Shown here piece by piece: positions 4,101 through 20,519 of a DNA stretch of 20,519 nucleotides. The position numbers and the translations under genes were made by a program. The notes beneath the pieces are model-generated. The model was given only the letters and a program-made list of their open reading frames with translations. It was not told the origin of the DNA and did not search any database. Positions within the stretch are counted from its first letter, which is position 1. Every line of letters begins with the position of its first letter. Source of the DNA: a bacterium (lineage in GTDB: Bacteria; UBP15; UBA6099); contig JAKQPS010000086.1 of assembly GCA_029564595.1 (NCBI GenBank), forward strand, positions 1 to 20,519, written 5' to 3'.

Positions 4101-7100
4101 TCGTATTCGCAGATGTATTCGCCGGGAGTCGCGGCTGATTCAACGCAGTCGGCGTCGCCTTTGTAAGTTGTGTTGAGGCGCATTTGGACGCGGTCGATTC
4201 CGTTGGCTTCCACGACGCGGACGCGGGCGGTGTACAGGCCGGGAGCGACCCAGTTGCCGGATTGCGGGTTCAGTATTGTGATGGCAGGCGGGGTGGTGTC
4301 GATTATGAGTGAGATTGGTTCGGAAGCGGTGTTGGCGGGATTCGCGAGATCGGATGCGATGGCATGGATTGTGTTGGCTCCTTCGGGAAGCGGCGCGGCG
4401 AGGGTTATTTGAGCCGTGTCCGTGCCGGTTACGCGGGCGATGGCGCAGGCGACTGGCGCGACGCATTCCAGCGTGGCCCAGTCGACGCCTGTTTCGGCGT
4501 CTGTGATCGAGACTACGATGGTCGGTTGCGGGTTGTTTGTCAGGTCTCCGTTTGTGTGGGATGTGAACACGATGACGGGCGGTGTTGTGTCGGCGGGAAT
4601 TATGTCAGTATGAGAGCATGTCGATTGTATTGTTCCGGGATCGACGCAGGCATCGAGAGTCAGCGCGTTGTTGTCGTCGCAGTCGGCGTCGATGTTGCAG
4701 GCGATTGCGGTGTTCTCGCAAGCCGATTGCGCTGTGCCAGCGCTGAGACATATGTCTATCGTCAGCGGATTGTCATCGTCGCAATCGGAGTTATTCAAAC
4801 ATGCAATCGGAGTATGCGAGCATGCGGCTTCGGCAGTTCCGGGGAAGACACAAGAATCGATCGTGTATGCGTTTTCATCATTGCAGTCTGAATCAGATAA
4901 GCACGCTATCGACGCGACGGCACATTCGGCGTTCAGCGCGCCGCCATTTACACATGTGTTGATTGTGTATGCGTTTCCGTCATCGCAGTCCGCGTCGATG
5001 TTGCAGGCGATTGCGGTGTTCTCGCACGCCGATTGCGCTGTGCCAGCGCTGAGACATGTGTCTATCGTCAGCGGATTGCCATCGTCGCAATCGGAGTTAT
5101 TCAAACATGCAATCGGAGAATGCGAGCATGCAGCATCAGCCATTCCGGGGGAGACACAAGAATCGATCGTGTATGCGTCATCGTCATTGCAATCGCTGTC
5201 CGTCAGACACGCTATTGTCGCGTGCGAGCATGCGGCATCGGCAGTTCCAGCATCAATACATGCGTCAAGCGTGTATGCGTTTTCATCATTGCAGTCTGAA
5301 TCAGATAAGCACGCTATCGTCGCGACAACGCATTCAGAATTCAGTGTGCCGCCGTTCACGCATGTGTTGATTGTGTATGCATTTCCGTCATCGCAGTCGG
5401 CGTCGGTATTGCAGGCGATCTGAGTGTGCAGACACGTTGATTGTATTGTTCCGGGATCAACGCAGGCATCCAACGTCAGCGCGATGCCGTCGTCGCAGTC
5501 CGCGTCGGTGTCGCAAACGATATCGCCGGATTCGTTGATATGATAGGTGACAGTGGGCGATTGGGAGATAAGCGCGCCGGTTTGCGGGTTGAAACTTCGG
5601 GCGAGGATAATGTGGTCGCCGGGGGCGGTGAAAGGAACGGTCACTAGGGCTGAGAAAGCGCCTTCGGGATCGGATGTTGTCGTGCCGATGAGTTCAAATA
5701 GGCCGCCGACACAGTTTGTCGAGGGCGCAAGGCCGATTCCGGCCGCGTCGAGCGCGGCGGGGTTCCATGTGTAGTGGTCATCTTCCGGATTGTCAGGAGT
5801 GTTGACTCCCTTAGGGTCATTTGGAGCAATCAGGATGTCGTGCGCGACGGCGTGGACTGTCACTCCCATATTCGGCAAGTCGTTTATGAAAGATGCGACG
5901 CTAAAGACTGTGGCGTTTACGTTTCTGTTTCCGTCAAAGAATTCTATCGTCGCGGCGGAGATGTTCTCTTCTCCATCAGCCCACCATACGGGCGTGTCGT
6001 CTTGATTGATAATGAAGCCGCTTTCTCCGGTCTCGGTCAAACCCCATATCACGTAGTCTGAGAATTGTATTCCGTTGTATTCAAAGGGCGTGCGCGAGGC
6101 GAGATATTGTTGGCTTGCGGAGTTCCAGCGAAGCCAACCGGGGGCGCCGGGTTTCATCAAGCATATTGGCTCTTGCGCTTGCACAGGTATGGCAGGGAGG
6201 TATGGGTTTCCGACACCTTGCGCAATAAGCGCAGGGCCGAAGGCGTCCACTTTATATCCTCCGATATGCTGCGCCGCCACCATAGCTTCCATATACGCTA
6301 TTGCGTCCGATACGCCGCCAATGGTGTACATTGTCGCTTTCACATCAGCCGTAACCCCGCCGTCCGGCAATCCCATGTTGTAGATAGTAGCCAGCGCTAC
6401 ATTTATGTCGGCAGAGCCGTCCACGCACGAATCCAACTGAGGCAACGGTTGCGGACCATATGGCGAAACGCCACATACGCTCAGATACAATCCGCTGTCG
6501 CCGAACATGTCGTATGCGACCTGATCGATAGAGAAAGCCGGACCTGATATTCTGTAACCGGCGGGGGTGTTGAAGGACGCCTGAAAGTTGTCAATGTCTA
6601 TAGTATAAGCTTCTGACTCTAAGGAAGCGGTAGCGTCGATTCTAGGGGTCGTGACCCTTCCTTCCATGTGAACCTGCGCATCGCACGTCATCGCGAGAGA
6701 TTCGTCGATGTATACTCCGAACGTCGATTGTTCAGAGCCTTGAATGTATTCAATCGCAAAAGTCTTCCATTCATCCAAGGCGACGCTCATGGTTGTTGTC
6801 GCGCAAACGACTGATTCGTTTATTCTAACTTCAAGGGATGTCTGCGCAGGCGAAGCGTTTTGTATATCGATTCCCCATATCGCGGATATCATATCTCTTT
6901 GGCTCTCCCCGTCAACGAGGAAGCTGAGCCTGTACAAACCTTCAATGGTTGCGTTTGTCGGAGCGCTCGCGGATGGGATGAATATGTCCGTTTTTAGTTT
7001 AAAATAGTCGGGACTGACATTTGCCCAATCTGTTATATAGGAGTCGTATGGGGAACATCCGCCTCCGGGCAGGGGGCGCAAGCGAAGAACTCCATCGGTT

Positions 7101-10100
7101 TCGATTACGCTTTCACATGAGCCGGGCCAATCTGAACCGCCGTAGCCCCAGTATTGTCTGATCCCGTCATCATAGTTGTCCGTGTAATAACCTATGGATT
7201 CCTGTTGATATACGGCATATAGGCTTGGTCCGTCTGGCACAGGCGAGATCTCGAATGAGCCGTCTTCATCATACCTGTACACGTTTACTGTCGAGTCATG
7301 CTCGGCTGTTCCGGCTACGACAGGCTCGAAGTTGTCTGACGCCACATATCCCTCTTGAACCTCAACGCCATCAATGTGAGTAATCAATGTCGGCGCGGCG
7401 GGCGCAAAGGGAATAACAGTAAGAAATTCCGTTGAAAGAGCGGGTTTAACGCTCATGTCTGGATGTCCTACGGCGGCGCGGATCGCGGTCACTCCTTCGG
7501 GAACGACATCAAGCGTTGCTTCGATTCGGTATTCACCTGAGCCGGGAGAGACCTCAACCAGAGGAGACGCAAACTGGAACGGACCGTCAATATTGGACGA
7601 AAACACTGCCATGTCTAGGATCAACGCAGGCAATTCCGTCATTCCGGAAACACCGGCGGCAGTTATTTCGAACATTTCTCCGGGCGCTATGTCCGACGCG
7701 CCTGTTCGGCTGATATTTCTTAAATGAACTTCATTTATGTTTTCTCTATAAGTAATGAAATCATCTATAATCGACAGCATCACTCCATGTGATTGAATTA
7801 CAGCCAGCACGAAATGGGCGGATTCGCCTTCTACGTCGGGACGGGAGTCTATGACCGCCTCGCAAACGTATACGCCCTGCTGCGTTTCTATCATCTGCGA
7901 TGTCGTCAGAATGCTAGGTTCGCCGTCGCTCGTGAAAAGCCCCGCGGCTATCACGCATTCGAGAGCGGCGCCGGGCGTCGCTTCAACTTCGATGCGCGCG
8001 GATTCGCCGACGGCAACGGTTTTCCATTCCGGATGGTTGACGTTGGTTATACTGCCGCTTGAAATCTGCGGCGCGCCCTCTCCGACGACCTCCATAGAGA
8101 TGGACGAATAAAGACACTCTCCCACGCCTTGCTCATAGTTATAAGCGGACATCAGCGTCACTGCGATCACATGGCTCGCTTCGTTTCCATCCAAGTCGAG
8201 GGTGGTGTACAAAGGCCCTTGCGCCTCATAGCTGTATTCGGTTCCTTCTATATGCTGCAAATTGAAGCCTGAGGTCACGAAGTGAGAACCGTAACAAGGG
8301 CCGACGCCGCCGGGATAAACGGTCGTGTTGTCGGTGTTATAAAGCGTGGCCCACGGGGTGTACAACTCATCATGACTTGAATCAAGTCGTATCCTGAACG
8401 TGTCGCCGAAGCTTATTTGGTCGCCGGGCGAAGTCACGTTCTCTAACATCAACGCGTCCACGCTATACGTTAAGTTGAACGTCTCCATTGTCATTGTTTC
8501 GTTGCCGTCGATGTCGGACGCCGTGAATGTCGCTTCATATTCTCCCGGCGCGAAACCATCAAGAGAGGCAGTCAGTGTTTTCGTTTGCGCGTCGTACTCG
8601 CTCTCTACGGGCCTGCCGTCCACTATTGCTTCTATGGATTCGATATCCAGCGGCGCGTCCGTTTCTTCGACAAGCGCCTCCATAGTCCCCTTCAAAGCTG
8701 GCGCGTCGGGTAGTTCGTCCGGCAAGGTTCCTCTTTGTTCATATTCGGCCGCAATCGCGTCGGCGACTTCAGGGAACTTCCACGGCATCCCGCCCTCCTG
8801 CTTTCTTGCTTTCAGAAGAGCGAGCATCGTTTCGATGTTTACGCTGGAAGAAGAAGCAATGGCGGAGAACGGCGAAGATGGAGAAGCAAGACTTTGCATC
8901 ATCGCCAACGCTTCGACAGGCTCCTGCTGTTCGTCGGAAGGAACGGACTCATCGTCGGAATATTGGACAGGCGCGACGGCGTAGCCTCTTGCTCCGTCAA
9001 CCCAGCCGGGAAGTTTTTTAATTGTGATCTTCGGGCCTCTGCCCGCCACCACAAATGAACCTGCCCACTCAATCGAGTTGCCCGCAAGGTCGAACGCTGT
9101 CATTGTGACTATCCGTCTGCCTGAAGGCATAGCTCCCGGCGACGCTTCGTACGCGCCGGAGGTCGCGACGTATTGCGAGATCAGTTCTTCGCCGTCTAGG
9201 AACAGCCGCACAGACGCGGAATCGAGGCCGACCCCGCCGGGGTTGTCTTCAACTCTAACGGCTATGCGGTCGGGAGATATCTCGAACAATGCGCCGTCGT
9301 CGGGGGCTACGCTGATGACGGATGGGGACGTCGTGTCCGCCGTTATTTCAACTTCTTTCGTTATTGTATCATCCGCGAGAGTCGCGGACGCGATGATTGT
9401 GTTCGCGCCCTCTTCTAGGTTTAAGACCGCGCTGAACGCGCCATCTTCTCCAACCGCAGCCGACATTCCGTTCACGCTAACTGTCGCTCCGATTGTCGCC
9501 TCGCCATTTACCGTAAGCGCGAGTGAATTCGTGATATGTCCATTTACAGGCGCGACTATTTTCAACGTCAATTGCGCCGGCTCTTCCGGCTCTGGAACGA
9601 CTTCGGTTTGAGCGCACGAGGCGTCGCATGTTCCGGCGTTTTCGCAGGCGCCCGCCGTTAGCGGGTCTCCATCGTCGCAATCCGCGTCCGTTTCACACGC
9701 GACTTCACACGCGACATTCGAGCAAACCGATTCGGCAATCCTCGCGTTAACGCATGCGTCGAGCGTCAGCGGATTGCTGTCATCGCAATCCGTATCTGTG
9801 ATACATGCGACTGCGGCATGCGAGCAAGAGGCGTCAGCAGTTCCCGCCGCCGCGCACGTATCAATCGTGTATGGGTTGTCATCGTCGCAGTCAGCGTCAT
9901 TTGAACACGCAATCGGGGTGTGAGAGCATTCTGCGCCAGACGTTCCGGCAAAGACGCAATAATCAAGCGTGCGCTCATCATCGTCATTACAGTCAGCATC
10001 GGACAAGCAAGCTATCGTCGCGACGATACATTCGGCGTTCAGAGCGCCCCCGTTTACGCATGTGTTGATTGTGTATTCGTTTTGGTCGTCACAATCAGCA

Positions 10101-12544
10101 TCGGTGTTGCAAGCAATTGGAGTATGTGCGCATGATGCTTGCGCCGAGCCGGGATTTAGGCACTCGCTGATTGTCAGAGGATTGCCGTCGTCGCAGTCCG
10201 CAGCCGACGCGCACTCTAGCGAATTGTTTACACATGACGACTGCGCGGTCCCGGGGCTAAGGCATGCGTCGAGCGTCATTGGATTGCTGTCATCACAATC
10301 CGTATTTCCAAGACATGCGACTGCGGCATGCGAGCAAGCGGCGTCAGCAGTTCCTGCCGCAACGCAAGTATCAAGGGTATGTGCGTCAGCATCGTCGCAA
10401 TCAGCGTCATTTAAACACGCAATCGGGGTATGCGCGCATTCTGCATCCGTAGTTCCGGCAGCCACACATGAATCTAGCGTGTGAGCATCATCGTCGTCGC
10501 AGTCCGCGTCATTTAGACATTCAATCCCATTATGGACGCAGACTGCCCCCGCCGTTCCGGGGTTCAGGCAAACATCCTCTGTGCGAGCGTCCGAGTCGTC
10601 GCAATCAGCAGAACTTAAACACTCAATTGCAACGCTTGAGCACAAGGACTGAATCGTTCCCGGATTCAAACACGAGTCCAGAGTGTAATTGTCAGCATCG
10701 TCGCAATCTGCGTCCGTGTTGCAAGCGATTGCGGTGTTTACGCATAAGGACGAAGCGCTTAACGGGTTCTCGCACACGTCAATCGTCAGCGCGTCCGCGT
10801 CGTCGCAATCTGCGTCTGTCGCGCAATCAATCGGTGCGTTCACGCATGACGACTGCGCGGTTCCGGGACTTGCGCATGTGTCGAGCGTCAAAACATCATC
10901 GTCGCCGCAGTCCGCGTCAGTGATACATTCAATTCCGTTATGGACGCAGACAGCCCCCGCCGTTCCGGGGTTCAGACAAACATCATCCGTGCGGACATCC
11001 GCGTCGTCGCAATCAGCGTCGCTCGAACAATCAGGAATCACATAGTTTATAGTCAAAGAAGTTACGGCGGAGTGTCCGGCAACATCCTGCGCGGACACCA
11101 CAAACGCGTTCAATCCTTCGTCCAGAGCCGCGTCAAAAAACGTCCATGTCCCTCCTGAAAGCGTCGCCGCCTCTCCGTTAACCTCAACGGAGGAAACCCC
11201 GCTCACGGCGTCAGACGCGGAACCTGATAGAGTTATCACAGGCGCGACCACCACTTGCCCGTCCGCGTGACTTGTCACGCTCACAACAGGCGGCGCGGTG
11301 TCCAGCGTAAACGAAACGCTCTTTTTCACAGCCGCATTATTACTTGTGTCCTTGCAATCTACTGTCGCTGAATGTGTTCCGTCGGCGGGCGACAGCGGAC
11401 AGATCACAGAGAACGGAGTTACTGCGCATCCTGCAGTCACATCCGCCCCGTCCAGTTTTACGACCACTGTCGCTGTGGCGACCGCCTCGTTGTCTTCAAG
11501 CTCGGCGCTCAACACCACAGGCGCCGCGTCGAGTAGCGCGCCAGCCGTCGGCTCCTCAATCGTTATCACCGGCTTGCTTGTGTCCGGAGCGTCGTAATTA
11601 ATGATTAGTATATAGTTGGCAACATGACCCGCCGCGTCTTCAGCCGTCACCGCTATGGCGTTCGCTCCCTCGTCCAGAGACACGCCCGGCATCGTCCACA
11701 CTCCGCCAAAAATCGCAACCGCCTCTCCGTTCACTTCGACTGACGCCACGCCGCTCGTCGCGTCGCTCGCAGTTCCTGAAACAGTTATCGTGGGAGTTGT
11801 CACAACCTGACCATTTTCATGGCTAGTGACAGCCAGCGCGGGCGGCGTCGTGTCAACAACTAAGCTAACGCTCGCTCGCGGCGCGGCGTTTCCGCTTGTG
11901 TCCGCGCAATCAATCGTCGCCGTATGCGACCCGTCCGCTGGTGAAAGCGAGCAGAATACCGACAAAGCGGACACATCGCACTGAGCGGTTATATTCGCGT
12001 CATCCAGCTTCACCACAACCGTTTCGGGATCAACCGCAACATCGTCCATCAAACTTGCCGACAACACAACTGAGGAAGCGGGAAACAACTCGCCGTTATC
12101 AGGCGACAGGATATCGATTTCAGGCGGTTCTTCGTCTCCCGCCGCATTTTCGATAATCACGTTTACTGACGCTGTCGAATAGTGACTGGATGGCGGAGCG
12201 GCTGAATATGCGCGAATGGAAATCTGTATAGGCCCGTCAGAATAATCAGAAGTGTCTAAAAAGAAAGTGTGGCTACCTAAACGACCGCCAACACGAATCC
12301 TGTCCGCCTCGGCTCCGCCGGCATACAGTATCAGCGTGTGCATCGAGCCGCCGTTAATGCCGTATTCGCACGACACCGGAATAATTCCGAATACGACTTC
12401 GCCCGATTCCGGCGATTCTATCGATATCCATGGGATATGCGCCGCCAGAAGCCGCCCCGCAGCCATAAAAACTCCTGCGAGAACGAACGCTCCGATGACG
12501 ACCGCCAGCAATCTCAGAGCCACACGTCCTTTTTGTCTATTCAT
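1199..12544 (-). CDS. Giant exported multi-domain surface protein: Ig-like, cysteine-repeat, FlgD-like and FN3-like domains
   Basis: One unbroken frame encodes 3781 residues from the ATG at 12544, preceded by GGAG at 12551-12554. A TTG four codons upstream (12556) overlaps that site and is less likely to be the start. Residues 1-35 are a basic N-terminus plus a long hydrophobic segment (signal peptide or anchor). Order, in approximate residues: Ig-like domains 37-503, where two consecutive modules of about 184 residues are similar to each other; 14 six-cysteine repeats of 34 residues, 506-982; Ig-like domains to about 1185; a helical, Pro/Ser/Glu-rich linker 1185-1300; further beta-rich segments; a concanavalin/LamG-like region 1785-1991; an unassigned stretch to 2343; nine more cysteine repeats 2344-2648; Ig-like domains ending in D-T-T-P-P or D-x-TPP linkers; two FlgD-like Ig domains with PNPFSPD and GVYTYRVRARD motifs at about 3065-3182 and 3279-3399; and a C-terminal FN3-like fold from about 3517. 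I see no sorting signal at the C-terminus. By family knowledge such proteins act outside the cell as adhesins or scaffolds; the ligand is unknown. Confidence 0.93.
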   Translation of the reverse strand: MNRQKGRVALRLLAVVIGAFVLAGVFMAAGRLLAAHIPWISIESPESGEVVFGIIPVSCEYGINGGSMHTLILYAGGAEADRIRVGGRLGSHTFFLDTSDYSDGPIQISIRAYSAAPPSSHYSTASVNVIIENAAGDEEPPEIDILSPDNGELFPASSVVLSASLMDDVAVDPETVVVKLDDANITAQCDVSALSVFCSLSPADGSHTATIDCADTSGNAAPRASVSLVVDTTPPALAVTSHENGQVVTTPTITVSGTASDATSGVASVEVNGEAVAIFGGVWTMPGVSLDEGANAIAVTAEDAAGHVANYILIINYDAPDTSKPVITIEEPTAGALLDAAPVVLSAELEDNEAVATATVVVKLDGADVTAGCAVTPFSVICPLSPADGTHSATVDCKDTSNNAAVKKSVSFTLDTAPPVVSVTSHADGQVVVAPVITLSGSASDAVSGVSSVEVNGEAATLSGGTWTFFDAALDEGLNAFVVSAQDVAGHSAVTSLTINYVIPDCSSDADCDDADVRTDDVCLNPGTAGAVCVHNGIECITDADCGDDDVLTLDTCASPGTAQSSCVNAPIDCATDADCDDADALTIDVCENPLSASSLCVNTAIACNTDADCDDADNYTLDSCLNPGTIQSLCSSVAIECLSSADCDDSDARTEDVCLNPGTAGAVCVHNGIECLNDADCDDDDAHTLDSCVAAGTTDAECAHTPIACLNDADCDDADAHTLDTCVAAGTADAACSHAAVACLGNTDCDDSNPMTLDACLSPGTAQSSCVNNSLECASAADCDDGNPLTISECLNPGSAQASCAHTPIACNTDADCDDQNEYTINTCVNGGALNAECIVATIACLSDADCNDDDERTLDYCVFAGTSGAECSHTPIACSNDADCDDDNPYTIDTCAAAGTADASCSHAAVACITDTDCDDSNPLTLDACVNARIAESVCSNVACEVACETDADCDDGDPLTAGACENAGTCDASCAQTEVVPEPEEPAQLTLKIVAPVNGHITNSLALTVNGEATIGATVSVNGMSAAVGEDGAFSAVLNLEEGANTIIASATLADDTITKEVEITADTTSPSVISVAPDDGALFEISPDRIAVRVEDNPGGVGLDSASVRLFLDGEELISQYVATSGAYEASPGAMPSGRRIVTMTAFDLAGNSIEWAGSFVVAGRGPKITIKKLPGWVDGARGYAVAPVQYSDDESVPSDEQQEPVEALAMMQSLASPSSPFSAIASSSSVNIETMLALLKARKQEGGMPWKFPEVADAIAAEYEQRGTLPDELPDAPALKGTMEALVEETDAPLDIESIEAIVDGRPVESEYDAQTKTLTASLDGFAPGEYEATFTASDIDGNETMTMETFNLTYSVDALMLENVTSPGDQISFGDTFRIRLDSSHDELYTPWATLYNTDNTTVYPGGVGPCYGSHFVTSGFNLQHIEGTEYSYEAQGPLYTTLDLDGNEASHVIAVTLMSAYNYEQGVGECLYSSISMEVVGEGAPQISSGSITNVNHPEWKTVAVGESARIEVEATPGAALECVIAAGLFTSDGEPSILTTSQMIETQQGVYVCEAVIDSRPDVEGESAHFVLAVIQSHGVMLSIIDDFITYRENINEVHLRNISRTGASDIAPGEMFEITAAGVSGMTELPALILDMAVFSSNIDGPFQFASPLVEVSPGSGEYRIEATLDVVPEGVTAIRAAVGHPDMSVKPALSTEFLTVIPFAPAAPTLITHIDGVEVQEGYVASDNFEPVVAGTAEHDSTVNVYRYDEDGSFEISPVPDGPSLYAVYQQESIGYYTDNYDDGIRQYWGYGGSDWPGSCESVIETDGVLRLRPLPGGGCSPYDSYITDWANVSPDYFKLKTDIFIPSASAPTNATIEGLYRLSFLVDGESQRDMISAIWGIDIQNASPAQTSLEVRINESVVCATTTMSVALDEWKTFAIEYIQGSEQSTFGVYIDESLAMTCDAQVHMEGRVTTPRIDATASLESEAYTIDIDNFQASFNTPAGYRISGPAFSIDQVAYDMFGDSGLYLSVCGVSPYGPQPLPQLDSCVDGSADINVALATIYNMGLPDGGVTADVKATMYTIGGVSDAIAYMEAMVAAQHIGGYKVDAFGPALIAQGVGNPYLPAIPVQAQEPICLMKPGAPGWLRWNSASQQYLASRTPFEYNGIQFSDYVIWGLTETGESGFIINQDDTPVWWADGEENISAATIEFFDGNRNVNATVFSVASFINDLPNMGVTVHAVAHDILIAPNDPKGVNTPDNPEDDHYTWNPAALDAAGIGLAPSTNCVGGLFELIGTTTSDPEGAFSALVTVPFTAPGDHIILARSFNPQTGALISQSPTVTYHINESGDIVCDTDADCDDGIALTLDACVDPGTIQSTCLHTQIACNTDADCDDGNAYTINTCVNGGTLNSECVVATIACLSDSDCNDENAYTLDACIDAGTADAACSHATIACLTDSDCNDDDAYTIDSCVSPGMADAACSHSPIACLNNSDCDDGNPLTIDTCLSAGTAQSACENTAIACNIDADCDDGNAYTINTCVNGGALNAECAVASIACLSDSDCNDENAYTIDSCVFPGTAEAACSHTPIACLNNSDCDDDNPLTIDICLSAGTAQSACENTAIACNIDADCDDNNALTLDACVDPGTIQSTCSHTDIIPADTTPPVIVFTSHTNGDLTNNPQPTIVVSITDAETGVDWATLECVAPVACAIARVTGTDTAQITLAAPLPEGANTIHAIASDLANPANTASEPISLIIDTTPPAITILNPQSGNWVAPGLYTARVRVVEANGIDRVQMRLNTTYKGDADCVESAATPGEYICEYEYNFSGMHNQNPTIGVVATDIPGNSSEGTVTFTVKNNASQVVSATLTNLTNPSATSISVGEKFKLTIRTSNSHTTPQFRIVNANRWPAPDSDIAFTITASSRTGNNWNLEGTLLSASDDGGNSFVELRAAASTNGFTTVVLSNALILDTGQIPPAKPTITRPRNNQTVGDKTVDIRGKSDPGTIVTIYIGAPGAGEPLSPTAVTAANGNYQVNITFELAGEKTIYAVAEKITTGALSEPSDPRVFRIRDRSIPVIEDLAAAPNPFSPDISIGSKDATTITANIYDETLSRWQIEVRNSSNTRMIEYEEYIVDPSPQGPNPVSFTWDGRRHMNNGNIVAVPEGVYTYRVRARDEFNNQTAWITGTVRIDKTPPTVAIASPPNGAAIVDAEFTIVINAADNIAIDHIVLYVDGQEIATIAEPVVPGRYEYTFLSAQIGPGVRSISVVAVDTAGNQSVATVIHIDVVYAIDTDPPTLTNASASEQYISPAFSPGVKDTVTFSATAADKNPSHWTLRIEDAAAVEVFGYEEAFISSQPDTPIDFSYTWDGTGSDETGNLPDGVYTYIISAYDAAGNVASATSPITIDNTPPSALITSPEEGRIVGGITFAITVEAADNFDVASVALYVDGELDSQAVQTATETWRTTLYPHLHGDGPHVLSVIATDPAGNPSSTLYPITLGQGFFSPFSYASADNPNAASDINIIIDTVAPKPPINLRTNENPTGAISLSWIPPTTNTDGSPLSDLAGYNIYLITQTGGCEPVSPVSGDAVPVSCGNGDIPDAFEINGPSFNYNGIDFNSTPAGNSPVWLDASSPQNTFAALPFSDVSSVNPSAPVYVYLLQAHLTGNDGLPAGVYFITAYSQAHLTDVESWLYDQIRFGALGEDSKVVALAPACVNAGFSGSLSASPLPLLSVPFFVREKVNTGLISPVPEPEFLYDSSLSLPSESMIAATAVDSAGNESVFSNFVRITD
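4601..5515 (-). repeat. Second in-gene array: nine 102-base cysteine-repeat units
   Basis: Within the giant gene, nine tandem units of 34 codons encode residues about 2344-2648. The protein pattern per unit is C-x2-D-x-DC-[DN]D, then T-[IL]-[DN]-x-C, then a Gly-containing turn, then x-C and a variable tail ending in I-A, about six cysteines per two-turn unit counting the next start. The pattern resembles the CDDGN-x-T-x-D-x-C style repeats known from Dictyostelium and myxobacterial surface proteins; that family assignment is by eye. The acidic D-x-D-x-x-D cluster could bind calcium. Units 2, 6 and 10-like types recur with a three-unit period. Confidence 0.9.
4675..5176 (-). repeat. Recent segmental duplication inside the second cysteine array (306-base offset)
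   Basis: The stretch at about 4675-4870 reappears at 4981-5176, exactly 306 bases (three 102-base units) away, with only scattered substitutions; for example the run around GATGTTGCAGGCGATTGCGG is shared at 4691 and 4997. A second relation exists at a 408-base offset: the stretch starting at 4872 matches that starting at 5280 for more than 100 bases. Nucleotide-level identity, including third codon positions, points to recent unequal recombination rather than selection on protein alone. Confidence 0.85.
9599..11029 (-). repeat. First in-gene array: fourteen 102-base cysteine-repeat units
   Basis: Fourteen tandem 34-codon units encode residues about 506-982 of the giant protein. The same C-x2-DADCDD and T-x-D-x-C pattern as in the other array is seen. 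Units are more diverged than in the second array, but higher-order copies are visible: unit 1 and unit 5 share the segment around CLNPGTAGAVC at a 408-base offset (10531 versus 10939), and units 8 and 13 match at a 510-base offset (9771 versus 10281). The last two units deviate, with an extra CEVA insertion and a shifted cysteine, as expected at an array edge. Confidence 0.9.
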
Positions 12545-12711
12545 AGAAATCTCCAATTATTTTAGACAACGCAAACACCTCCATAACACGCCTACGAATG
12601 CCCCACCTACATTCGAGACATATCGCAACGACGCGTCATGCGAGTAACATGCTATGTTTACCGGCCTAATGTTGTTGCTTATTCGCCTACATTACTTGAT
12701 TGCGCGACGAT

Positions 12712-12739
12712 ATTATCATATCCAGTTGTCTCATGTCAA
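12712..12739 (-). promoter_or_regulatory. Sigma70-like promoter for the giant surface gene
   Basis: On the minus strand TTGACA (12734-12739, six of six matches to the -35 consensus) is followed after 16 bases by GATAAT (12712-12717, five of six to the -10 consensus). Transcription would start near 12705, giving an untranslated leader of about 160 bases before the ATG at 12544. It is correctly oriented for the giant gene and its downstream partner. The match is good, but no start site has been mapped. Confidence 0.6.
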
Positions 12740-12740
12740 C
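12725..12740. promoter_or_regulatory. Operator-like inverted repeat between divergent promoters
   Basis: GTTGTCTCATGTCAAC is an imperfect palindrome (arms GTTGTC and GTCAAC around TCAT, five of six pairs). It overlaps the -35 box of the leftward promoter and the -35 box of a candidate rightward promoter, a position where one regulator could control both. The arms are short, so chance occurrence cannot be excluded. Confidence 0.3.
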
Positions 12741-12753
12741 CATGTTTTATTAT
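12726..12753 (+). promoter_or_regulatory. Candidate distal rightward promoter toward the cas operon
   Basis: TTGTCT (12726-12731, four of six) and TATTAT (12748-12753, five of six) are separated by 16 bases on the plus strand. Transcription would start near 12760, leaving a leader of roughly 415 bases that includes the 60-codon ORF at 12970. It overlaps the leftward promoter back to back. A further weak pair, TTGCGC at 12793-12798 and TATTAT at 12817-12822 with 18-base spacing, lies just downstream. Confidence 0.3.
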
Positions 12754-12969
12754 CGCTATTATGTTATTGTCGCGCGGCAACTATTGGCATCATTGCGCTC
12801 GTGGATCGCAATTATTTATTATTTTGAGAATAAGCCCACCTACTGCCATTGATATTAGTTATCTTGTCACAGCCCATGTGTAAACTATTCAACAAGAGTT
12901 GGAAAACAAATTGTTCTAGCCGAATAACGACATTGTCGAGGCTGAACTTTTTAACACTGCGGAGGTTTC

Positions 12970-13152
12970 ATGAATATTAAGAATGCGCGATTTCTTCTAC
13001 AGAAATCAGCAACAACTTTTGTATGCTTGCGACAACCGATCATCGTCTTAAAAGCCGCTCACGTATTTCCATGCGCATATTGCGCAAACACTTTAACGTT
13101 AAATATAATTGAGCGGACACAAATAGCAAAAAGAATAGATATTCAACAATAA
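12970..13152 (+). CDS. Possible small protein upstream of cas6 (60 residues)
   Basis: An ATG at 12970 follows GGAGG at 12961-12965 (four bases of spacing, slightly short) and opens a 60-codon frame ending at 13152, 22 bases before cas6. The product is basic, with a hydrophobic middle (around VCLRQPIIVLKAAHVF) and a C-x2-C pair (CAYC); I recognise no family. In Myxococcus xanthus a short ORF, devI, precedes the related dev cas genes and encodes a small developmental inhibitor. The position here is comparable, but I see no sequence similarity that I can vouch for. The strongest cas6-proximal promoter lies inside this frame, which argues against it or implies dual use. Confidence 0.35.
   Translation: MNIKNARFLLQKSATTFVCLRQPIIVLKAAHVFPCAYCANTLTLNIIERTQIAKRIDIQQ
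13080..13109 (+). promoter_or_regulatory. Proximal cas operon promoter with embedded palindrome
   Basis: TTGCGC (13080-13085, four of six) and a perfect TATAAT (13104-13109) are separated by 18 bases. The perfect 12-base palindrome TTTAACGTTAAA (13092-13103) fills the spacer and abuts the -10 box, a classic operator position for a repressor. Just upstream, TGCGCATATTGCGCA (13073-13087) carries two self-complementary TGCGCA copies. Transcription would start near 13116, about 60 bases before the cas6 ATG. Confidence 0.5.
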
Positions 13153-13174
13153 GCGAATTAAATGGAGGTGGCGC

Positions 13175-13807
13175 ATGCCCGCAATTGATGTTTCTTTCAA
13201 AATCAACGGCGAAAAACTACCCGCCGACCACGGTTATCCGATGCTTTCCGCCGTATCACGAATGGTTCCAAGCATTCACAGCGATTCAACGTGTGGTATT
13301 TTCCCTGTCAACGGCGTCAACACAGGCGACAGATTCATAGCGCTGACTGATAGGAGCCGCCTTGTTTTCAGGCTCAGCCACGAAAAGCTTCCGGATCTGC
13401 TAAAGCTCGCCGGAAAAAAGATTCTTATAAGTGAATGCCAGCTTCGTCTCGGCATTCCTGAAGTGTTCTCATTGAAGCCGTCTTCTCATTTAAAAAGCAG
13501 ACTTGTCACAATAAAAGGATTCATGGAGCCGGAGCCTTTTCTTGAAGCTGCCGTCCGTCAGTTGTCTGAGATGGGAATAAACGGAAAGCCGTCTCTCGCG
13601 ATTAGAGCTTCCCAAAGAAGCGCCGCTATGGCAGAAGCTGCCTGCCATTATGTAAGGCGCACCCTGCGCGTTAAAGACAAAGAGATAGTCGGATATGCCA
13701 TGATCGTCGAAAGCCTCACCGCCGAAGAATCCATCCTGCTCCAAGAAAAAGGAATCGGTGGCCGCCGCCGCATGGGCTGCGGACTTTTTCTGCCGTATAA
13801 AGGGTAG
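13175..13807 (+). CDS. cas6: Cas6 crRNA-processing endoribonuclease, MYXAN-type (Cmx6)
   Basis: The product (210 residues, usual size for the family) should cleave pre-crRNA within each repeat and hold the 3' handle in the Cascade complex. The C-terminus carries the Cas6 glycine-rich loop, residues 193-203 (GIGGRRRMGCG), followed by a short strand. The N-terminal pattern Y21 ... P32-x2-H35 matches the region that carries the catalytic histidine in many Cas6 proteins, so H35 is the candidate. A strong GGAGGTG at 13164-13170 sets the start. It is the first gene of the cas operon, and its stop is six bases before the cas3 ATG, implying coupled translation. The MYXAN assignment rests on sequence feel plus gene order. 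Confidence 0.9.
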   Translation: MPAIDVSFKINGEKLPADHGYPMLSAVSRMVPSIHSDSTCGIFPVNGVNTGDRFIALTDRSRLVFRLSHEKLPDLLKLAGKKILISECQLRLGIPEVFSLKPSSHLKSRLVTIKGFMEPEPFLEAAVRQLSEMGINGKPSLAIRASQRSAAMAEAACHYVRRTLRVKDKEIVGYAMIVESLTAEESILLQEKGIGGRRRMGCGLFLPYKG

Positions 13808-13813
13808 TGAAAT

Positions 13814-16135
13814 ATGAAAACAAATGAAGCCGTTAAAAACATACTTGCAAAAAATCAAAAAGGCGCCTCGGTTTCATATGAAGAAAGCCTTATTGGTCAC
13901 AGTGTGGTGGTATCGAACTCCTTCACGAGGATTTTCGGAGTGCCTGAAAACCCTTCAAGACAGGCCGATAAATGGTTTGGTTTCTTCAGGTTTCTTGATT
14001 TCAACATTGATCCAATTGAGTTTTACGAGAACAGTATTGTAGCCTGTCTGTTACATGATATTGGGAAGGCAAACAGTGGTTTTCAAGATGCGGTCAATGG
14101 GAAAAGAGATTCTCAGATCATTCGTCATGACCACCTTGGAGGATTGTTGCTCAATCTAGACCATGTCAAAAACATACTCAAGGAAATTCTAAAACTCGAT
14201 CACGAAATAGTAGTCTCTTCAATAATAGGACATCATCTAAGGGCAAACAAAACTGGAAATAGTCAACCGTGCTTTGGAAGAATCAGCATTGATAGGGCAA
14301 CATTCAGCCTATTTCCCAATGAAATAGCATCTCTTCTAAACATCGTTTCTAAAAAGTTCGGGCTGCCTCAAATAACTGATACCGATATTCCAGAACAATG
14401 GTCTTTCAATTCTCCCGCCGCATTTAATATCACTCTACACATTGAAAAGACTACAAGCATGCTTAAGACATTTCACAAGGAATTGCGACAAAACCACACG
14501 CGTAATAGACTCCTAATGGCCGTGAGGACGGCTCTTATTATTGCAGATAGCGTCGGTTCCGGTCTGGCCAGAGAGGGAGAGGATATCACCCAATGGATAA
14601 ACTCGGCTTTTGACGAAAGCTTTCTGTTAGACGGCTCAGCGGTTGAGAACAAAGTGATAATACCGCGATGTGAACAGATTTCAAGCCAAAAAGGCGGTTT
14701 TTCATGGAGCGGATTCCAGAATGCGGCAAATGACTTTCCAGCAAGATCATTGCTTCTGTCCCCATGCGGCAGTGGAAAAACTCTTGCCTCTTGGCGCTGG
14801 ATCGCCTCTCAGGCGCAAAAAAAGCCAGTCGCGAGAATTATCTTTCTCTATCCCACAAGAGCGACGGCGCAGGAGGGGTTTCTGGACTACGTATCGTGGG
14901 CTCCTGAAGCTGACGCTTCTCTTATCCACGGAACTTCGGAGTATGCGCTCTCCAATATGTTCGAAAGTCCTGATGATTCACGACATGGCAAGGATTTCAC
15001 CACTCAGGAACGCCTCTTTGCTCTCGGATACTGGCAGCGTCGTATCTTCAGCACAACCGTTGATCAATTCCTTGGTTTTATGCAGAATTCTTACCGTTCC
15101 GTGTGTCTTCTTCCCCTTCTTTCCGACAGCATTATTGTAATAGACGAGATACATAGTTTCGATAAATCCCTGTTCTCCTCGCTAAAATTATTTCTGAAGA
15201 GTTTCAACGCCACCGTTCTCTGCATGACCGCCAGTTTGACGAAGCAGAGGATCTCTGAAATTGAGCAGTGCGAAGTGTCAATATTGGACACTTCAAAGAT
15301 GAATTATTCCGACCTCAACGATATATCACATGTCAACAGATACCATGTTCAACAGATAGAAGACGTTGCAGATGCCTTCCAAGTAGTCGAGCGTTTGAAG
15401 GATTCAAATAAAATATTGTGGGTAGTGAACACTGTGGACAGATGTCAGGATATTGCGCGGAGACTCGGTATCCCATGCTACCATAGCAGATTCAAACTTA
15501 AGGATAGGGAAAAGAGACACAAAGAAGTCATTTCATCGTTCAGGAGCAGTGGCGAACCAGCCCTTTCAATAACCACCCAAGTCTGCGAGATGAGCCTTGA
15601 TCTGGATGCCGACGTGTTGATTTCCGAGATTGCTCCAATAACCAGCCTGATTCAGAGAATGGGGCGCTGCAACCGCAAATCCGTACCAGAAAACAACAGA
15701 ATTGGACATGTCTTCTTCTACAAGCCGTTAAATGAAACACCCTATTCGAGAGATGATTTGGCTGGAACAGACAGTTTTATCGATAAGATCAATAACCATA
15801 CAGTCAGCCAAGCGCTTCTCCTGCAACTTCTTGAAGAATACGGGCCTAACGCACCTGAATTTGAACGCTATGCAGCTTTTCTCGAATGCGGGCCATGGGC
15901 GCATTCTAGGGAAGAAACACTTCGAGATTCAAACGATTTCACCGTTCATGCCATACTCGACTCGGATGTGGAGCAATATTTATTGTTCCGCAGACAGAAA
16001 AAACCGGTTCATGGCCTTTTACTGCCAGTCCCATCCCGAAATGCGAAACGTGACTCACGGATAGGTTCCAGTCCTCTGGTTGCATGCGCATCCCATTATT
16101 CCGCCGATCTTGGTTTCTCGAAGATTTCATACTAA
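13814..16135 (+). CDS. cas3: Cas3 HD nuclease-helicase
   Basis: This 773-residue protein has the N-terminal HD nuclease followed by an SF2 helicase, the normal order and size for Cas3. It is recruited by Cascade to nick, unwind and degrade target DNA. HD residues seen: H29, H81-D82 (in LLHDIGKANSGFQ), H105/H107 and H140-H141. Helicase motifs seen: Walker A CGSGKT (318-323), motif Ia YPTRATAQ (about 346-353), Walker B DEIH (444-447), motif III MTAS (471-474), motif V around TTQVCEMSLDLDAD (587-600) and motif VI QRMGRCNR (614-621). All are intact, so the enzyme looks active. The start follows cas6 by six bases with only a weak ribosome binding site, consistent with translational coupling. Confidence 0.97.
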   Translation: MKTNEAVKNILAKNQKGASVSYEESLIGHSVVVSNSFTRIFGVPENPSRQADKWFGFFRFLDFNIDPIEFYENSIVACLLHDIGKANSGFQDAVNGKRDSQIIRHDHLGGLLLNLDHVKNILKEILKLDHEIVVSSIIGHHLRANKTGNSQPCFGRISIDRATFSLFPNEIASLLNIVSKKFGLPQITDTDIPEQWSFNSPAAFNITLHIEKTTSMLKTFHKELRQNHTRNRLLMAVRTALIIADSVGSGLAREGEDITQWINSAFDESFLLDGSAVENKVIIPRCEQISSQKGGFSWSGFQNAANDFPARSLLLSPCGSGKTLASWRWIASQAQKKPVARIIFLYPTRATAQEGFLDYVSWAPEADASLIHGTSEYALSNMFESPDDSRHGKDFTTQERLFALGYWQRRIFSTTVDQFLGFMQNSYRSVCLLPLLSDSIIVIDEIHSFDKSLFSSLKLFLKSFNATVLCMTASLTKQRISEIEQCEVSILDTSKMNYSDLNDISHVNRYHVQQIEDVADAFQVVERLKDSNKILWVVNTVDRCQDIARRLGIPCYHSRFKLKDREKRHKEVISSFRSSGEPALSITTQVCEMSLDLDADVLISEIAPITSLIQRMGRCNRKSVPENNRIGHVFFYKPLNETPYSRDDLAGTDSFIDKINNHTVSQALLLQLLEEYGPNAPEFERYAAFLECGPWAHSREETLRDSNDFTVHAILDSDVEQYLLFRRQKKPVHGLLLPVPSRNAKRDSRIGSSPLVACASHYSADLGFSKISY

Positions 16136-16146
16136 GGAGATATGCA

Positions 16147-17871
16147 ATGAATAAGATACTTGTGAAATCTGACGATATTATTCTCAACTACGACCTTCAT
16201 TCACTTCCAACCGCACAACACAAGTCTGGACTCGCGGGTCTGTTGCTTATGATCGAGTCAATGAAAATGCGGGGCTTCAGCAACATTCCCGAAGTTCTCG
16301 AAATATCGGCATTCAAGGCAAGCATCCGTTTCAACCGGGCCGCCTTCAGAGATATGTTTAACGATCTGTATTCTTCAGAAGTCATTGAGTCAAAACCTAG
16401 TAAGAAAAAAAGAGAAAAAGGAGAAGATGATAAAAAAACTGTTATTGAACCCAAGAGAACGGAACGGAGAGAAACAACCAACAAAAAAGGGGAAGTAAAA
16501 ACAGAAGTATACTATATATACGATGACTACATCCCCAAGGGTGGCTTTCTTAAATGCTTTTATCCGGATGGGGACGGCCTGTGGTTGAAACTATGGAGGG
16601 ATATGCTTTGGAACACACTACGAGGCATTCCCACTACAAGGTTAATTTATACAAAAGAAGCGGACAAAAAAGAAACAGCCCAAACTTGGAATAAACTTGC
16701 AGAGTCATTAAGAGAGCGCGAAAACAACAAAATAATCTCTGAGAGTATATCAAGCTCCATTTTTATAGGCGCGCAAGACGAGAATGCTGAAAAAGTGCCT
16801 TTCAAAGGGAATATCGAGAACAATTTTCTCCTGCATTTTTCACTGATTGCAAGTCTAATATTTGTCCCCCGATCCGTATCTCTCAAGAAAACAGACAGAG
16901 GCAAATCGTTCGATAACGGCTATGCTCTTGCTGTTCCAGAGCCGTCAGACCTCAAAGAATTTGTGCAAGATGCGAAACTAATGCTGAAGGAACTTGAAAC
17001 CGATGTCTCCGGCTACAGGCCAAGGGCTTCTATTATTTGCATGCCTGAGGAAGGTGGTCTTGAATATCTGACACTGCTCAATGCGCTCGCTCGTAAAAAG
17101 GTTTCTAATTCTCAGATCAGCGATAGCATAGATGCGGTGGAGATTTATCATCTGCAAAAAAAAGGCAACAGCATAAAGCTCCTCAATTTAGGAAGAATTC
17201 TACCGGATAGAAGACTTCTCAGCGATTATGAACTCATGTATAACACTTGTCTCAATCCATTTTTTAAATCCCAACGTATAAAAAACCTTCTCGCCGGGTT
17301 GCCGTGGTATGAGGACATGCATGTCATGTTCTCTGTTTTGCCTTGGGAGACATTTGCGTTTTCACCCGGCGAAACGCCCAACCTTATTTCTTTTTTCGGC
17401 GCTGACGTTGAGAAAAAGTTAAATGCGATAAAAGAAGAACTCAAATCGAAAGGAGGTGACAATATGACAGATGAAGTCAGGGATGACCAACTGGCTATTA
17501 TTGTCCGAAATGTCGTGAAGTCTTATGTTAGAGTGAAAACCGAGAAAAAAACCGGCTTTTCTTGGGCGACCCAAAAAGAGCAAAGCCGCTTCAAAGAAAC
17601 GGCTCTCAAGGTTTGCAGCCAAGCTTTTCTCGATATGCGCGGACGAAGGGATCGGGTATTTGTGGAATACTTCACTGGCGTCTTATGCTCTGTGCCCCAG
17701 TATATGCCTGAAGAGGATTACATCACAGTTGTTAATACACTTCTCTCTGATCCCGACAAAGTGAAATGCCTTGCCATGCTCGCGATGTCGGCGACCAGTA
17801 GTCTCTACAGGTCAGGAAATGACAATCAATCTGATAAAAAGAAGGAGGAGGCTAACGATGACGAGCAATGA
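16147..17871 (+). CDS. cas8a1: Cas8 large subunit of Cascade, DevT/Cas8a1 (MYXAN) type
   Basis: The product (574 residues) is the large subunit expected to recognise the PAM and help open target DNA. The N-terminal motif LPTAQHKSGLAGL (residues 20-32) is characteristic of the MYXAN-type Cas8/DevT group as I know it. The start is the ATG at 16147, preceded by AGGAG at 16135-16139 immediately after the cas3 stop. A longer open frame begins at 16084 but lies inside cas3 and lacks a site. Residues 82-118 form a very charged, Lys/Glu-rich insertion, probably a flexible loop. The C-terminal 135 residues are helical in character and start at M440 behind a perfect internal ribosome binding site; see the Cas11 entry. 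The 3' end overlaps cas7 by 14 bases. Cas8 sequences diverge fast, so the exact subtype name is less certain than the role. Confidence 0.9.
   Translation: MNKILVKSDDIILNYDLHSLPTAQHKSGLAGLLLMIESMKMRGFSNIPEVLEISAFKASIRFNRAAFRDMFNDLYSSEVIESKPSKKKREKGEDDKKTVIEPKRTERRETTNKKGEVKTEVYYIYDDYIPKGGFLKCFYPDGDGLWLKLWRDMLWNTLRGIPTTRLIYTKEADKKETAQTWNKLAESLRERENNKIISESISSSIFIGAQDENAEKVPFKGNIENNFLLHFSLIASLIFVPRSVSLKKTDRGKSFDNGYALAVPEPSDLKEFVQDAKLMLKELETDVSGYRPRASIICMPEEGGLEYLTLLNALARKKVSNSQISDSIDAVEIYHLQKKGNSIKLLNLGRILPDRRLLSDYELMYNTCLNPFFKSQRIKNLLAGLPWYEDMHVMFSVLPWETFAFSPGETPNLISFFGADVEKKLNAIKEELKSKGGDNMTDEVRDDQLAIIVRNVVKSYVRVKTEKKTGFSWATQKEQSRFKETALKVCSQAFLDMRGRRDRVFVEYFTGVLCSVPQYMPEEDYITVVNTLLSDPDKVKCLAMLAMSATSSLYRSGNDNQSDKKKEEANDDEQ
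17450..17459 (+). promoter_or_regulatory. Internal ribosome binding site AAGGAGGTGA within cas8
   Basis: AAGGAGGTGA is complementary to the 3' end of 16S rRNA over its whole length and lies five to seven bases before an in-frame ATG (17464). It codes for K-G-G-D in the Cas8 frame. It is as strong as, or stronger than, the sites in front of the annotated cas genes here, which makes internal initiation likely. Confidence 0.65.
17464..17871 (+). CDS. cas11: Predicted Cas11 small subunit, internal in-frame translation product of cas8
   Basis: An ATG in the cas8 frame, behind the internal site at 17450-17459, would yield a 135-residue protein identical to Cas8 residues 440-574. The size and alanine/lysine-rich helical look fit Cas11, the small subunit that lines the Cascade belly and contacts the non-target strand. 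It is established for type I-B, I-C and I-D systems that Cas11 is made this way from the cas8 or cas10d gene. No separate small-subunit gene is seen in this operon, which fits. The sequence shows the site and the frame; production of the protein is inferred. The Lys/Glu/Asp-rich tail (about the last 20 residues) probably is disordered. Confidence 0.65.
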   Translation: MTDEVRDDQLAIIVRNVVKSYVRVKTEKKTGFSWATQKEQSRFKETALKVCSQAFLDMRGRRDRVFVEYFTGVLCSVPQYMPEEDYITVVNTLLSDPDKVKCLAMLAMSATSSLYRSGNDNQSDKKKEEANDDEQ

Positions 17872-18844
17872 AAATTCACAAAAACTGAAAAATCTTTTCT
17901 GCACAGTTCTCACCCATACGGCCCCCGGCGCAAATTACAGAGGCGAAAACGAGGAGAACCGGGCGGTATTGCAGAAAATCACCGATGGGCGGCATGATTA
18001 TGCTTTCATATCCTCGGAATCCATCCGCAACGCAATCAGGGAGACCCTGAATAAACTTGGTCTCCCATGCAACAGAGATCGTTTATTCGATGAAGAGCAA
18101 CCCGCTGTGAAATTCAAAGATTATCCTGATCCAGATAATTACGCCGACGATTTTTTTATGGGCTGGCTGATCGCCGCATCAGACAAAGACAGAAAGAAGA
18201 TAAGAAAGGAACTTGAGGAGAAAGACAGAGACCCGGAAGCTTTCAGCTTCAAACGCGACTCCATACTGCGAATGAACATAGCTGTTGCGCTCGAACCTTA
18301 CCGGTACAACACCATTTTTACACAGTCTCCCCAGGACTTGACACCCAAAGACCTGAAGTCTCACAGAAATACCGATAACGCTCAACTGCTCCACCGTGAG
18401 ACTGCTCTTACCGCCTTCCAGTTCCCTTTCGCTCTGAACCTGAACGACTGCAACGCGAAAAAAGAGTGGACGCAAACCCTGCTGAAGGCCATCGGTGAAC
18501 TGAACGGCGTCGCGGGGAATCACGCAAGAAATTATTTCGAGATGGCTCCGTCAAGCATAGTGGCTCGCCTCACCCACCAGCTTGTGGCCGGATACGACAC
18601 GTATGGTTTTCGCATATCCGAAAACCGGGAACACTCTCTTCCTGAGATCGTGGACGGTGTTCTAAATGATGATTACCCCGGCTCTGAATTCTACATAGGC
18701 GGTCGCATCGTGAAGAACATGGACGAATCCGCAAGGAAAAACCTCGAAGACAAAGGTGTTCATCTCTATCGAACCCCCCAGTCTCTTCTGGGAAAAGTCG
18801 GCGAGGACTCCTTCATGCTTGAGACATCCATGAAGTCCAGTTAA
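17858..18844 (+). CDS. cas7: Cas7 backbone subunit of Cascade, DevR type
   Basis: The product (328 residues) should polymerise along the crRNA spacer to form the Cascade backbone. Residues 26-62 carry the family signature, with NYRGENEENR and YAFISSESIRNAIRETL. The latter 'ISSE-x-IRNA-x-R' is typical of the DevR/Cst2 branch of Cas7. The ATG at 17858 follows a purine-rich AAGGAGGAGG and overlaps the cas8 end by 14 bases, so I reject an upstream open start at 17771. A charged segment at residues 108-128 (KDRKKIRKELEEKDRD) is probably the thumb or a surface helix. The cas5 gene follows after 20 bases. Confidence 0.93.
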   Translation: MTSNENSQKLKNLFCTVLTHTAPGANYRGENEENRAVLQKITDGRHDYAFISSESIRNAIRETLNKLGLPCNRDRLFDEEQPAVKFKDYPDPDNYADDFFMGWLIAASDKDRKKIRKELEEKDRDPEAFSFKRDSILRMNIAVALEPYRYNTIFTQSPQDLTPKDLKSHRNTDNAQLLHRETALTAFQFPFALNLNDCNAKKEWTQTLLKAIGELNGVAGNHARNYFEMAPSSIVARLTHQLVAGYDTYGFRISENREHSLPEIVDGVLNDDYPGSEFYIGGRIVKNMDESARKNLEDKGVHLYRTPQSLLGKVGEDSFMLETSMKSS

Positions 18845-18864
18845 CAACGGGGAGGGATGAACCC

Positions 18865-19569
18865 ATGCTCTGCCTTTATCTTCAAGCTCCGTTCGGGGCG
18901 TTCCGAAACTTCACTGCGGGCAGTTTCAGGCCCACTGCGGACTTTATTACTTATTCGGCGGCTTATGGTCTTTTGCTTAATGTGGCGGGTATCGAGATGC
19001 GGTATGACGACAATCAGCAGCCCATGACACTGATTGGCACGGACCTTCCACGTTTTCGAATCGCCATCGCCGCTCTATCGTTTCCTATACATCAGTCTGT
19101 CCTTCAGCTTCTTCACAACTATCCAGTTGGAACACTAAACCTTAAAGGCGAGGCGCTGGAAGCCAAGAAGAACAGCGTAAAGGGCGGCAAGTACAACATA
19201 GCTCCGGTAAGGCGCTCGTTCCTGTCCGGCATCAATGGTTATATCTGTGTCGACGCCTATGATGAAATCGAGTCGCGTATTCTGAACGGACTCAGAGGAG
19301 AGGTTCAACGCGATTACGGGCTGCCGTTTCTGGGCGACAATAGTTTTCTAATTGATCGACTGCAACCTGTTCACAAGCCTAACGCGGCTCACTGGTTTGT
19401 TTCCGTCACACCGGAGAATCCAACGGGTTACAGGAAAGACCTTGTGATGCGACTGACGATTTCAATAAACCGCGCTGATATGTCGCGGACAACTTCCGGA
19501 CTCTTCGCGCCTGTTTCGCAGCTTTGTGAAGCGCCACCCGACTCAGCATGGGTGGAGGTGGGTTATTGA
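18865..19569 (+). CDS. cas5: Cas5 subunit of Cascade, DevS type
   Basis: The product (234 residues) should cap the 5' end of the crRNA. The N-terminal strand-loop with LQAPFGAFRNFTAGSFRPTA (residues 6-25) and the following TYSAAYGLLLN match the Cas5 RAMP signature, in which an aromatic-rich loop is followed by 'P-x-P-T/A' and a helix. GGGGAGGG at 18849-18856 precedes the ATG by eight bases; another ATG at 18857 is out of frame. In Myxococcus xanthus the homologue DevS, with DevT and DevR, affects sporulation; a developmental role here is not shown. Its TGA stop shares four bases with the start of the next gene. Confidence 0.92.
   Translation: MLCLYLQAPFGAFRNFTAGSFRPTADFITYSAAYGLLLNVAGIEMRYDDNQQPMTLIGTDLPRFRIAIAALSFPIHQSVLQLLHNYPVGTLNLKGEALEAKKNSVKGGKYNIAPVRRSFLSGINGYICVDAYDEIESRILNGLRGEVQRDYGLPFLGDNSFLIDRLQPVHKPNAAHWFVSVTPENPTGYRKDLVMRLTISINRADMSRTTSGLFAPVSQLCEAPPDSAWVEVGY
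19553..19559 (+). promoter_or_regulatory. Ribosome binding site GGAGGTG supporting a TTG start for cas4-cas1
   Basis: GGAGGTG sits at the very end of cas5, six bases before the TTG at 19566. The first ATG of the next frame is at 19602 with no site in front of it. The site therefore favours the TTG, which overlaps the cas5 stop as TTGA, a stop-start arrangement that couples translation of the two genes. Confidence 0.6.
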
Positions 19570-20519
19570 CAAACGCCTCACACGACCCTCAAATACGCGT
19601 CATGGCGCTTCACGCGCTCGAATATTGCGAGCGTCTGTTCTATCTCGAAGAAGTCGAGGAAATCCGGCTCGCGGACGCCGATGTGTTCGCGGGCCGTTCC
19701 CTCCACCTTGATCTTGCGCTGGAGAACGCTCTCGAAAAATCCGAAGTCGATCTTTCTTGTGAAACCCTCGGCTTGGTCGGCCGCGCAGACATCATTAAAA
19801 AATCCAACGGCGAATGGATTCCCTTCGAGCATAAAAAAGGCTCTTCCCGCGCGGTCGACAACGCTCATCAAGCTTGGCCGCCGGACTCCCTTCAGGTTGT
19901 CGCATACGCCATGCTCCTCGAAACAAAATTAGGACTCCCGGTTTCGGAGGGCAGAATCAGGTATCACAGAGACAACATCACGGTCAGGGTCGCTGTCGAT
20001 TTTGATGCGCGTCAAAGAGTTCTAGCCGCCGCCGCCCGCGCGCGCCTCCTTCGCTCTTCTCCGAACCGCCCCCCCGTCGCGGACAACGACCGTCTTTGCC
20101 TTCATTGCTCTCTTTCTCCCGTGTGCCTCCCTGAGGAAGATAGAATTGCCCGAAATAAGAACTGGTCGCCCATTCGTCTGTTCCCTCCAGACAGGGAGGG
20201 TCGCGCCATTCACGTCACGTCCCATTCCGCTGTTATTCGCCGCTCCAACGACCAGCTAACCGTTCAAGTCAAGGATGCGGACGACCTTCATTTCTCTTCG
20301 AACGAAATCGACTCGCTCATTCTCCACGGGTATCCGCAGATAACCACTCAGGCCCTCCACCACTGCGCATACAACGGAATTCCCGTTCATTGGATATCCG
20401 CCGGCGGACGCTACGTCGCCGGACTTCTCGCCGGAGCAGGCTCGGTTCAACGGCGACTCAGACAATTCAAAGCCTTATCGTCTCCGGCCATTTGTATTGA
20501 TCTTTCCAGAAGAACCGCC
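19566..20519 (+). CDS. cas4-cas1: Cas4-Cas1 fusion, spacer acquisition (C-terminus outside window)
   Basis: 318 residues are visible and the frame is open at the edge. The Cas4 part (about 1-195) is a RecB-like, iron-sulfur exonuclease that trims pre-spacers and helps define the PAM. Seen are the first cysteine C21 (in ALEYCERLFYLEEVEEI), D75 (GRAD), E88-x-K90 (FEHKKG), Q110-x3-Y114, and the cysteine trio C178, C181, C187, so the nuclease motifs and cluster ligands are complete. The Cas1 part begins about residue 203 with its N-terminal beta domain (IHVTSHSAVI, EIDSLILHG and GIPVHWIS segments). Its integrase active site lies beyond the window. Fused Cas4-Cas1 is typical of MYXAN-type and some type I-G (I-U) loci; DevT/R/S-type neighbours favour MYXAN. 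cas2 and the CRISPR array are expected next. An alternative start is the ATG at 19602. Confidence 0.95.
   Translation, partial: MTNASHDPQIRVMALHALEYCERLFYLEEVEEIRLADADVFAGRSLHLDLALENALEKSEVDLSCETLGLVGRADIIKKSNGEWIPFEHKKGSSRAVDNAHQAWPPDSLQVVAYAMLLETKLGLPVSEGRIRYHRDNITVRVAVDFDARQRVLAAAARARLLRSSPNRPPVADNDRLCLHCSLSPVCLPEEDRIARNKNWSPIRLFPPDREGRAIHVTSHSAVIRRSNDQLTVQVKDADDLHFSSNEIDSLILHGYPQITTQALHHCAYNGIPVHWISAGGRYVAGLLAGAGSVQRRLRQFKALSSPAICIDLSRRTA

Follow-up and report, generated by a model that had tools for sequence, protein, structure and literature searches.

A putative Cas11 small subunit nested in the Cmx8-type cas8 gene of an uncultured bacterium of the UBA6099 lineage

The DNA analysed here, referred to below as the window, is a stretch of 20,519 nt (positions 1 to 20,519 of the forward strand of contig JAKQPS010000086.1, assembly GCA_029564595.1) from a bacterium of the GTDB lineage UBP15; UBA6099. 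It carries a contiguous CRISPR operon, all on the forward strand, in the order cas6, cas3, cas8, cas7, cas5 and a cas4-cas1 fusion. The cas6 gene (13175..13807) encodes a Cmx6-type protein (TIGR02807), and is followed by cas3 (13814..16135), encoding an HD nuclease and helicase (TIGR01587 and TIGR01596), and by the large-subunit gene cas8 (16147..17871), the end of which is overlapped by the start of cas7 (17858..18844) by 14 nt. The DevR/Cst2-like Cas7 matches TIGR02585 at 53 bits, below the cut-off of 72.75, and is called Cas7b by PADLOC; the Cmx5/DevS product of cas5 (18865..19569) matches TIGR02586 at 94.9 bits, likewise below its cut-off of 111.5. The best matches of Cas7 and Cas5 are thus of the MYXAN Cmx8 kind, though under the NCBIfam cut-offs, and together with the Cmx6-type Cas6, Cas3 and the Cas4-Cas1 fusion (19569..20519) they give the make-up of a type I-B MYXAN Cmx8 operon. 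No CRISPR array was detected within 12500-20519; the contig stops inside cas4-cas1, and cas2 and the array would lie beyond it. Adjoining the operon on the opposite strand is an ORF of 3785 residues (1199-12556, minus strand) with many bacterial Ig-like domains (Big_7, Big_13 and Glucodextran_B), which is likely to be a giant protein, either exposed on the cell surface or secreted.

The 574-residue product of cas8 is assigned to the NCBIfam family TIGR04413 (Cmx8) with a score of 485.6 bits against a cut-off of 150 (E 1.9e-145), the full profile being covered, and its predicted structure aligns to the Cas8 of PDB entry 8h67 with a VIA Z of 32.4. No match to TIGR03485 (Cas8a1/Cmx1) was found at E 0.1. 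The initial annotation had described the locus as a MYXAN-type system with a DevT-type Cas8. The MYXAN assignment holds; because the Myxococcus Cas8a1 has been equated with DevT (PMC12567085) and the cas8 product belongs to TIGR04413 rather than TIGR03485, the DevT-type label was a misassignment. A Pfam MIS13 match to the Cas8 C-terminus (E 1.8e-4, under the cut-off) was treated as a chance helical match.

Within cas8, an in-frame ATG at codon 440 (17464) opens a reading frame of 135 residues which runs to the stop codon shared with cas8 (17464..17871, forward strand) and which we designate cas11. It is preceded by the Shine-Dalgarno (SD) sequence AAGGAGGTGA at 17450..17459, and the coordinates and counts given in the initial annotation for these features proved correct. 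This is the sole match to AAGGAGGTGA in the window, even when one mismatch is allowed. The preceding base (17449) is also A, extending the pairing to the 11-nt AAAGGAGGTGA, which is complementary to the 3' tail of the genome's own 16S rRNA, GGATCACCTCCTTT, located on a real SSU rRNA gene. No other site of the operon has a predicted anti-SD pairing as strong as that of the internal site (-17.6 kcal/mol, versus -8.2 for the cas8 start at 16147, which is preceded by TAAGGAGAT). Across the 4.4-Mb genome the exact 10-mer followed by an ATG 2-8 nt later occurs four times, versus none for a reversed-pattern control, and when the codons of cas8 were synonymously reshuffled with the protein fixed (n=300), 1.7% of the shuffles paired as well as the internal site. 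As had been noted at the outset, the contiguous operon contains no standalone small-subunit gene. A search of the 135 residues against the rest of the 97%-complete genome returned as its best other match a marginal hit at E 0.14 with a stop inside, which is unconvincing.

Scanning genomes with an alignment of four sequences identified 70 related loci in many phyla. The family test set comprised 68 intact single-ORF genes, including the cas8 described here and three from plasmid records, and excluded one contig-end fragment (L071); all of its members match TIGR04413, and one also touches TIGR03485, at E 6e-4. All 68 genes have an in-frame start codon in the linker that joins the Cas8 body to the C-terminal helical bundle (61 ATG, 4 GTG and 3 TTG), and in 61 of them (90%) this start has a strong SD, defined as an upstream pairing of -6 kcal/mol or better. 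Median pairing at the linker start is -8.7 over all 68 genes, versus -2.2 at 1,630 other in-frame starts of the same genes, where strong pairing is found in 7.6%. When the best start was taken from each 40-codon window, the linker passed in 90% and the control windows in 7.8%. Both the start and the ribosome site at which the initial annotation directed an alignment of homologues are therefore widely conserved. No Cmx8 relatives were found in a search of viral contigs, and no second Cmx8 was found among 98 relatives and the seven-genome phylum of the window.

The SD-like sequence might be incidental, a by-product of Lys-Gly-Gly coding in the linker in genes from which full-length Cas8 alone is made, and the local amino acids do favor SD-like DNA, as 34 +/- 3 of the 68 genes still had strong sites when their codons were synonymously shuffled. 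The maximum reached in these shuffles was 42, however, against the 61 observed, and the linker start codon always follows. Moreover, the GGAG core occupies codon position 1 in 26 of the strongly paired genes, position 2 in 3 and position 3 in 32, and the register must have changed at least 11 times along the protein tree. The same RNA signal is encoded by different amino acids, and these register shifts point to selection acting on the translation initiation signal; we consider an incidental origin of the SD very improbable. The comparison serves as a family-wide quantitative test, in which the ribosome signal is conserved independently of the encoding amino acids. The SD lies exactly at the domain boundary, where it could instead slow elongating ribosomes and aid Cas8 folding with no initiation taking place, but such pausing would not require a start codon in frame and at a distance suited to initiation (a median of 7 nt from SD to start in the homologues), and we give this explanation almost no credence.

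Seven of the 68 genes are weakly paired at the linker start, five of them from related Nostocales cyanobacteria. The least convincing homologue is L062, with a low-ranking GTG and no convincing site. In the Nostocales Cmx8 genes L053, L058, L060, L063, L066 and L074 the internal ATG is kept and its SD pairing is weak or weaker (-2.9 to -6.8), and these genes may use SD-independent starts.

Structure predictions, which were run without the three sequences from plasmid records, indicate that the 135 residues alone form a helical bundle (mean pLDDT 91.1). In the model of full Cas8 (pLDDT 91.8) one helix ends at residue 435 and the bundle starts at residue 442, placing Met440 in the connecting loop. 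The segment is thus predicted to fold on its own and to be separable from the Cas8 core, and the comparison with Cas11 proposed in the initial annotation gave a clear match. The six best Foldseek matches of the small part all came from Synechocystis PCC 6714, being chains of either Cas11b or Cas8, and VIA-align gave a Z of 13.0 to the Cas11b chain 8h7q_J, 12.2 to the C-terminus of the 8h67 Cas8 and 8.9 to the Cas8 of a type I-B CAST. Unrelated bundles score a Z of about 5 by this method; matches at that level (14-3-3, BAG and designed bundles) represent common helical arrangements and were ignored. Homology of the 135 residues to Cas11b (8h67_M) is also detectable by sequence, at E 4.2e-08.

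In four further homologues the reading frame of the large subunit stops where Cas11 begins, and Cas11 forms an ORF of its own, with both the SD and the ATG kept. These splits comprise a short gap between the ORFs in L030 (2900-3000), an ATGA overlap in L047 (4200-4330) and in L059 (4200-4320), and an 8-nt overlap in L052 (4280-4400). Three of them fall in one weakly supported clade and L052 lies apart, indicating at least two independent changes. Judged from the assemblies rather than from reads, four sequencing errors located exactly at the Cas8/Cas11 junction are unlikely. A fifth candidate, L029, was rejected because the gene is interrupted in its N-terminal third, suggesting a frameshift or assembly error. 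The retention of the SD and ATG in the split genes is a further argument against an incidental SD, and the separate Cas11 ORFs would be left unexplained by ribosome pausing. It is quite possible, if somewhat doubtful, that across Cmx8 the large and small subunits are encoded either in nested form by a single gene or by a pair of neighboring genes, and that in the split Cascades a Cas8 without the attached Cas11-like domain has its place there taken by a free Cas11. If so, the fused Cas11-like copy would be dispensable, and the split homologues offer a simple route to asking whether Cas8 needs a covalent Cas11 domain.

Taken together, the initiation signal, its conservation, the natural splits and the predicted fold support the proposal of the initial annotation that the internal start makes Cas11, and cas8 very probably encodes two proteins, Cas8 and an internally initiated Cas11; for the UBA6099 organism itself we infer this production from sequence, structural models and analogy. 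Ribosomes starting at 16147 would make the 574-residue Cas8, and those binding the internal SD at 17450 would start at the ATG at 17464 and release a separate 135-residue Cas11. With two starts on one message, the stronger internal site could supply several Cas11 copies per Cas8. In the type I-B Cascade of Synechocystis, one Cas8b is assembled with seven Cas7b, one Cas5b, one Cas6b and three Cas11b (PMC11096372), and the non-target strand has support from both Cas11b and the C-terminal end of Cas8 (PMC11096372). By analogy with this one-to-three arrangement, several free copies of Cas11 would be arrayed alongside the C-terminal domain of Cas8, which has the same sequence, and together they would form the belly of Cascade, holding the displaced DNA strand. 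For this organism, we infer that the start is used, how many copies of Cas11 are present and that they help to stabilize the R-loop. Anyone rebuilding this Cascade would have to supply Cas11 or retain the internal start.

The C-terminal bundle might work solely within Cas8, like the fused small subunit of types I-F and I-G, with free Cas11 being minor or non-functional. In keeping with this, Cas11b and the C-terminal domain of Cas8 have the same sequence in the Synechocystis Cascade (PMC11096372), and in some I-B systems Cascade can form without Cas11b (PMC11899642). The closest solved relative nevertheless holds its three Cas11b copies as free subunits, the internal SD here outpairs that of cas8, and effective interference in Haloferax requires Cas11b (PMC11899642), making a bundle that acts only in fused form highly unlikely.

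The true DevT-type family was surveyed with 26 full-length TIGR03485 genes obtained from searches of Myxococcota and Cyanobacteria (loci L083, L085-L099 and L101-L110). In all 26 an aligned start codon (24 ATG and 2 GTG) lies 126-147 codons before the end, at a conserved E-R-x-G-L-x-x-M motif, and 25 of them show SD-like pairing of -5.2 to -12.0; the exception, L093, has an ATG without an SD. This test is weaker than that of Cmx8 because several of the genes are near-identical and the surrounding residues are conserved. A PDB search with one member identified 8fcj chain I (Cas8a1/Cmx1), and the C-terminal part was matched by chain J, which is Cas11, so that the DevT-type extension is already represented.

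The initial annotation had suggested that internal Cas11 production might here be extended to a new type of Cas8. This suggestion does not stand: an internal Cas11b has already been published for the Cmx8 family (PMC11096372), DevT-type Cas8 has its own Cascade with Cas11 in the 8FCJ series, and the cas11 nested in cas8 described here exemplifies a rule already known, which gains an uncultured lineage. Internal Cas11 in types I-C and I-D and in other I-B systems is attributed to McBride et al. 2020 in PMC7684278, PMC11899642 and PMC13199841, and the Cas11b of Haloferax (PMC11899642) is a further example. As proposed for the present system, the small subunit of these systems comes from translation that starts in frame inside the gene of the large subunit, but their large subunits are Cas8c, Cas10d and haloarchaeal Cas8b. 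In Thermotoga maritima Cas8b, another Cas8b, the internal start was silent in E. coli (PMC13199841). The type I-B CAST Cascade (Cas8a1/Cmx1, DevT-type, PDB 8FCJ series) is similar in that its Cas11 matches the C-terminus of its Cas8, with a similar bundle (VIA Z 8.9) and a similar fold of the full Cas8 (Z 22.9), but it is described by a different family model, TIGR03485, and belongs to a transposon system. The nearest known counterpart is the Cas11b of Synechocystis PCC 6714 (PDB 8H67, 8H7Q and 8IP0), a MYXAN system in which Cas11 is encoded from an internal ribosome-binding site in cas8b (PMC11096372); for the structural work, Cas11b came from its own plasmid gene (PMC11096372). It agrees with the protein predicted here in the Cas8 family (TIGR04413), in position and in fold. 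Its start Met aligns with Met440, and counting from that Met in the Synechocystis sequence yields 124 residues, as many as the Cas11b chain deposited in the PDB contains, versus 135 residues here. The Synechocystis DNA has an SD of its own, AAGGAGAT, that of the present gene being the stronger, and the two systems come from different phyla, with Cas8 proteins that are about 28% identical.
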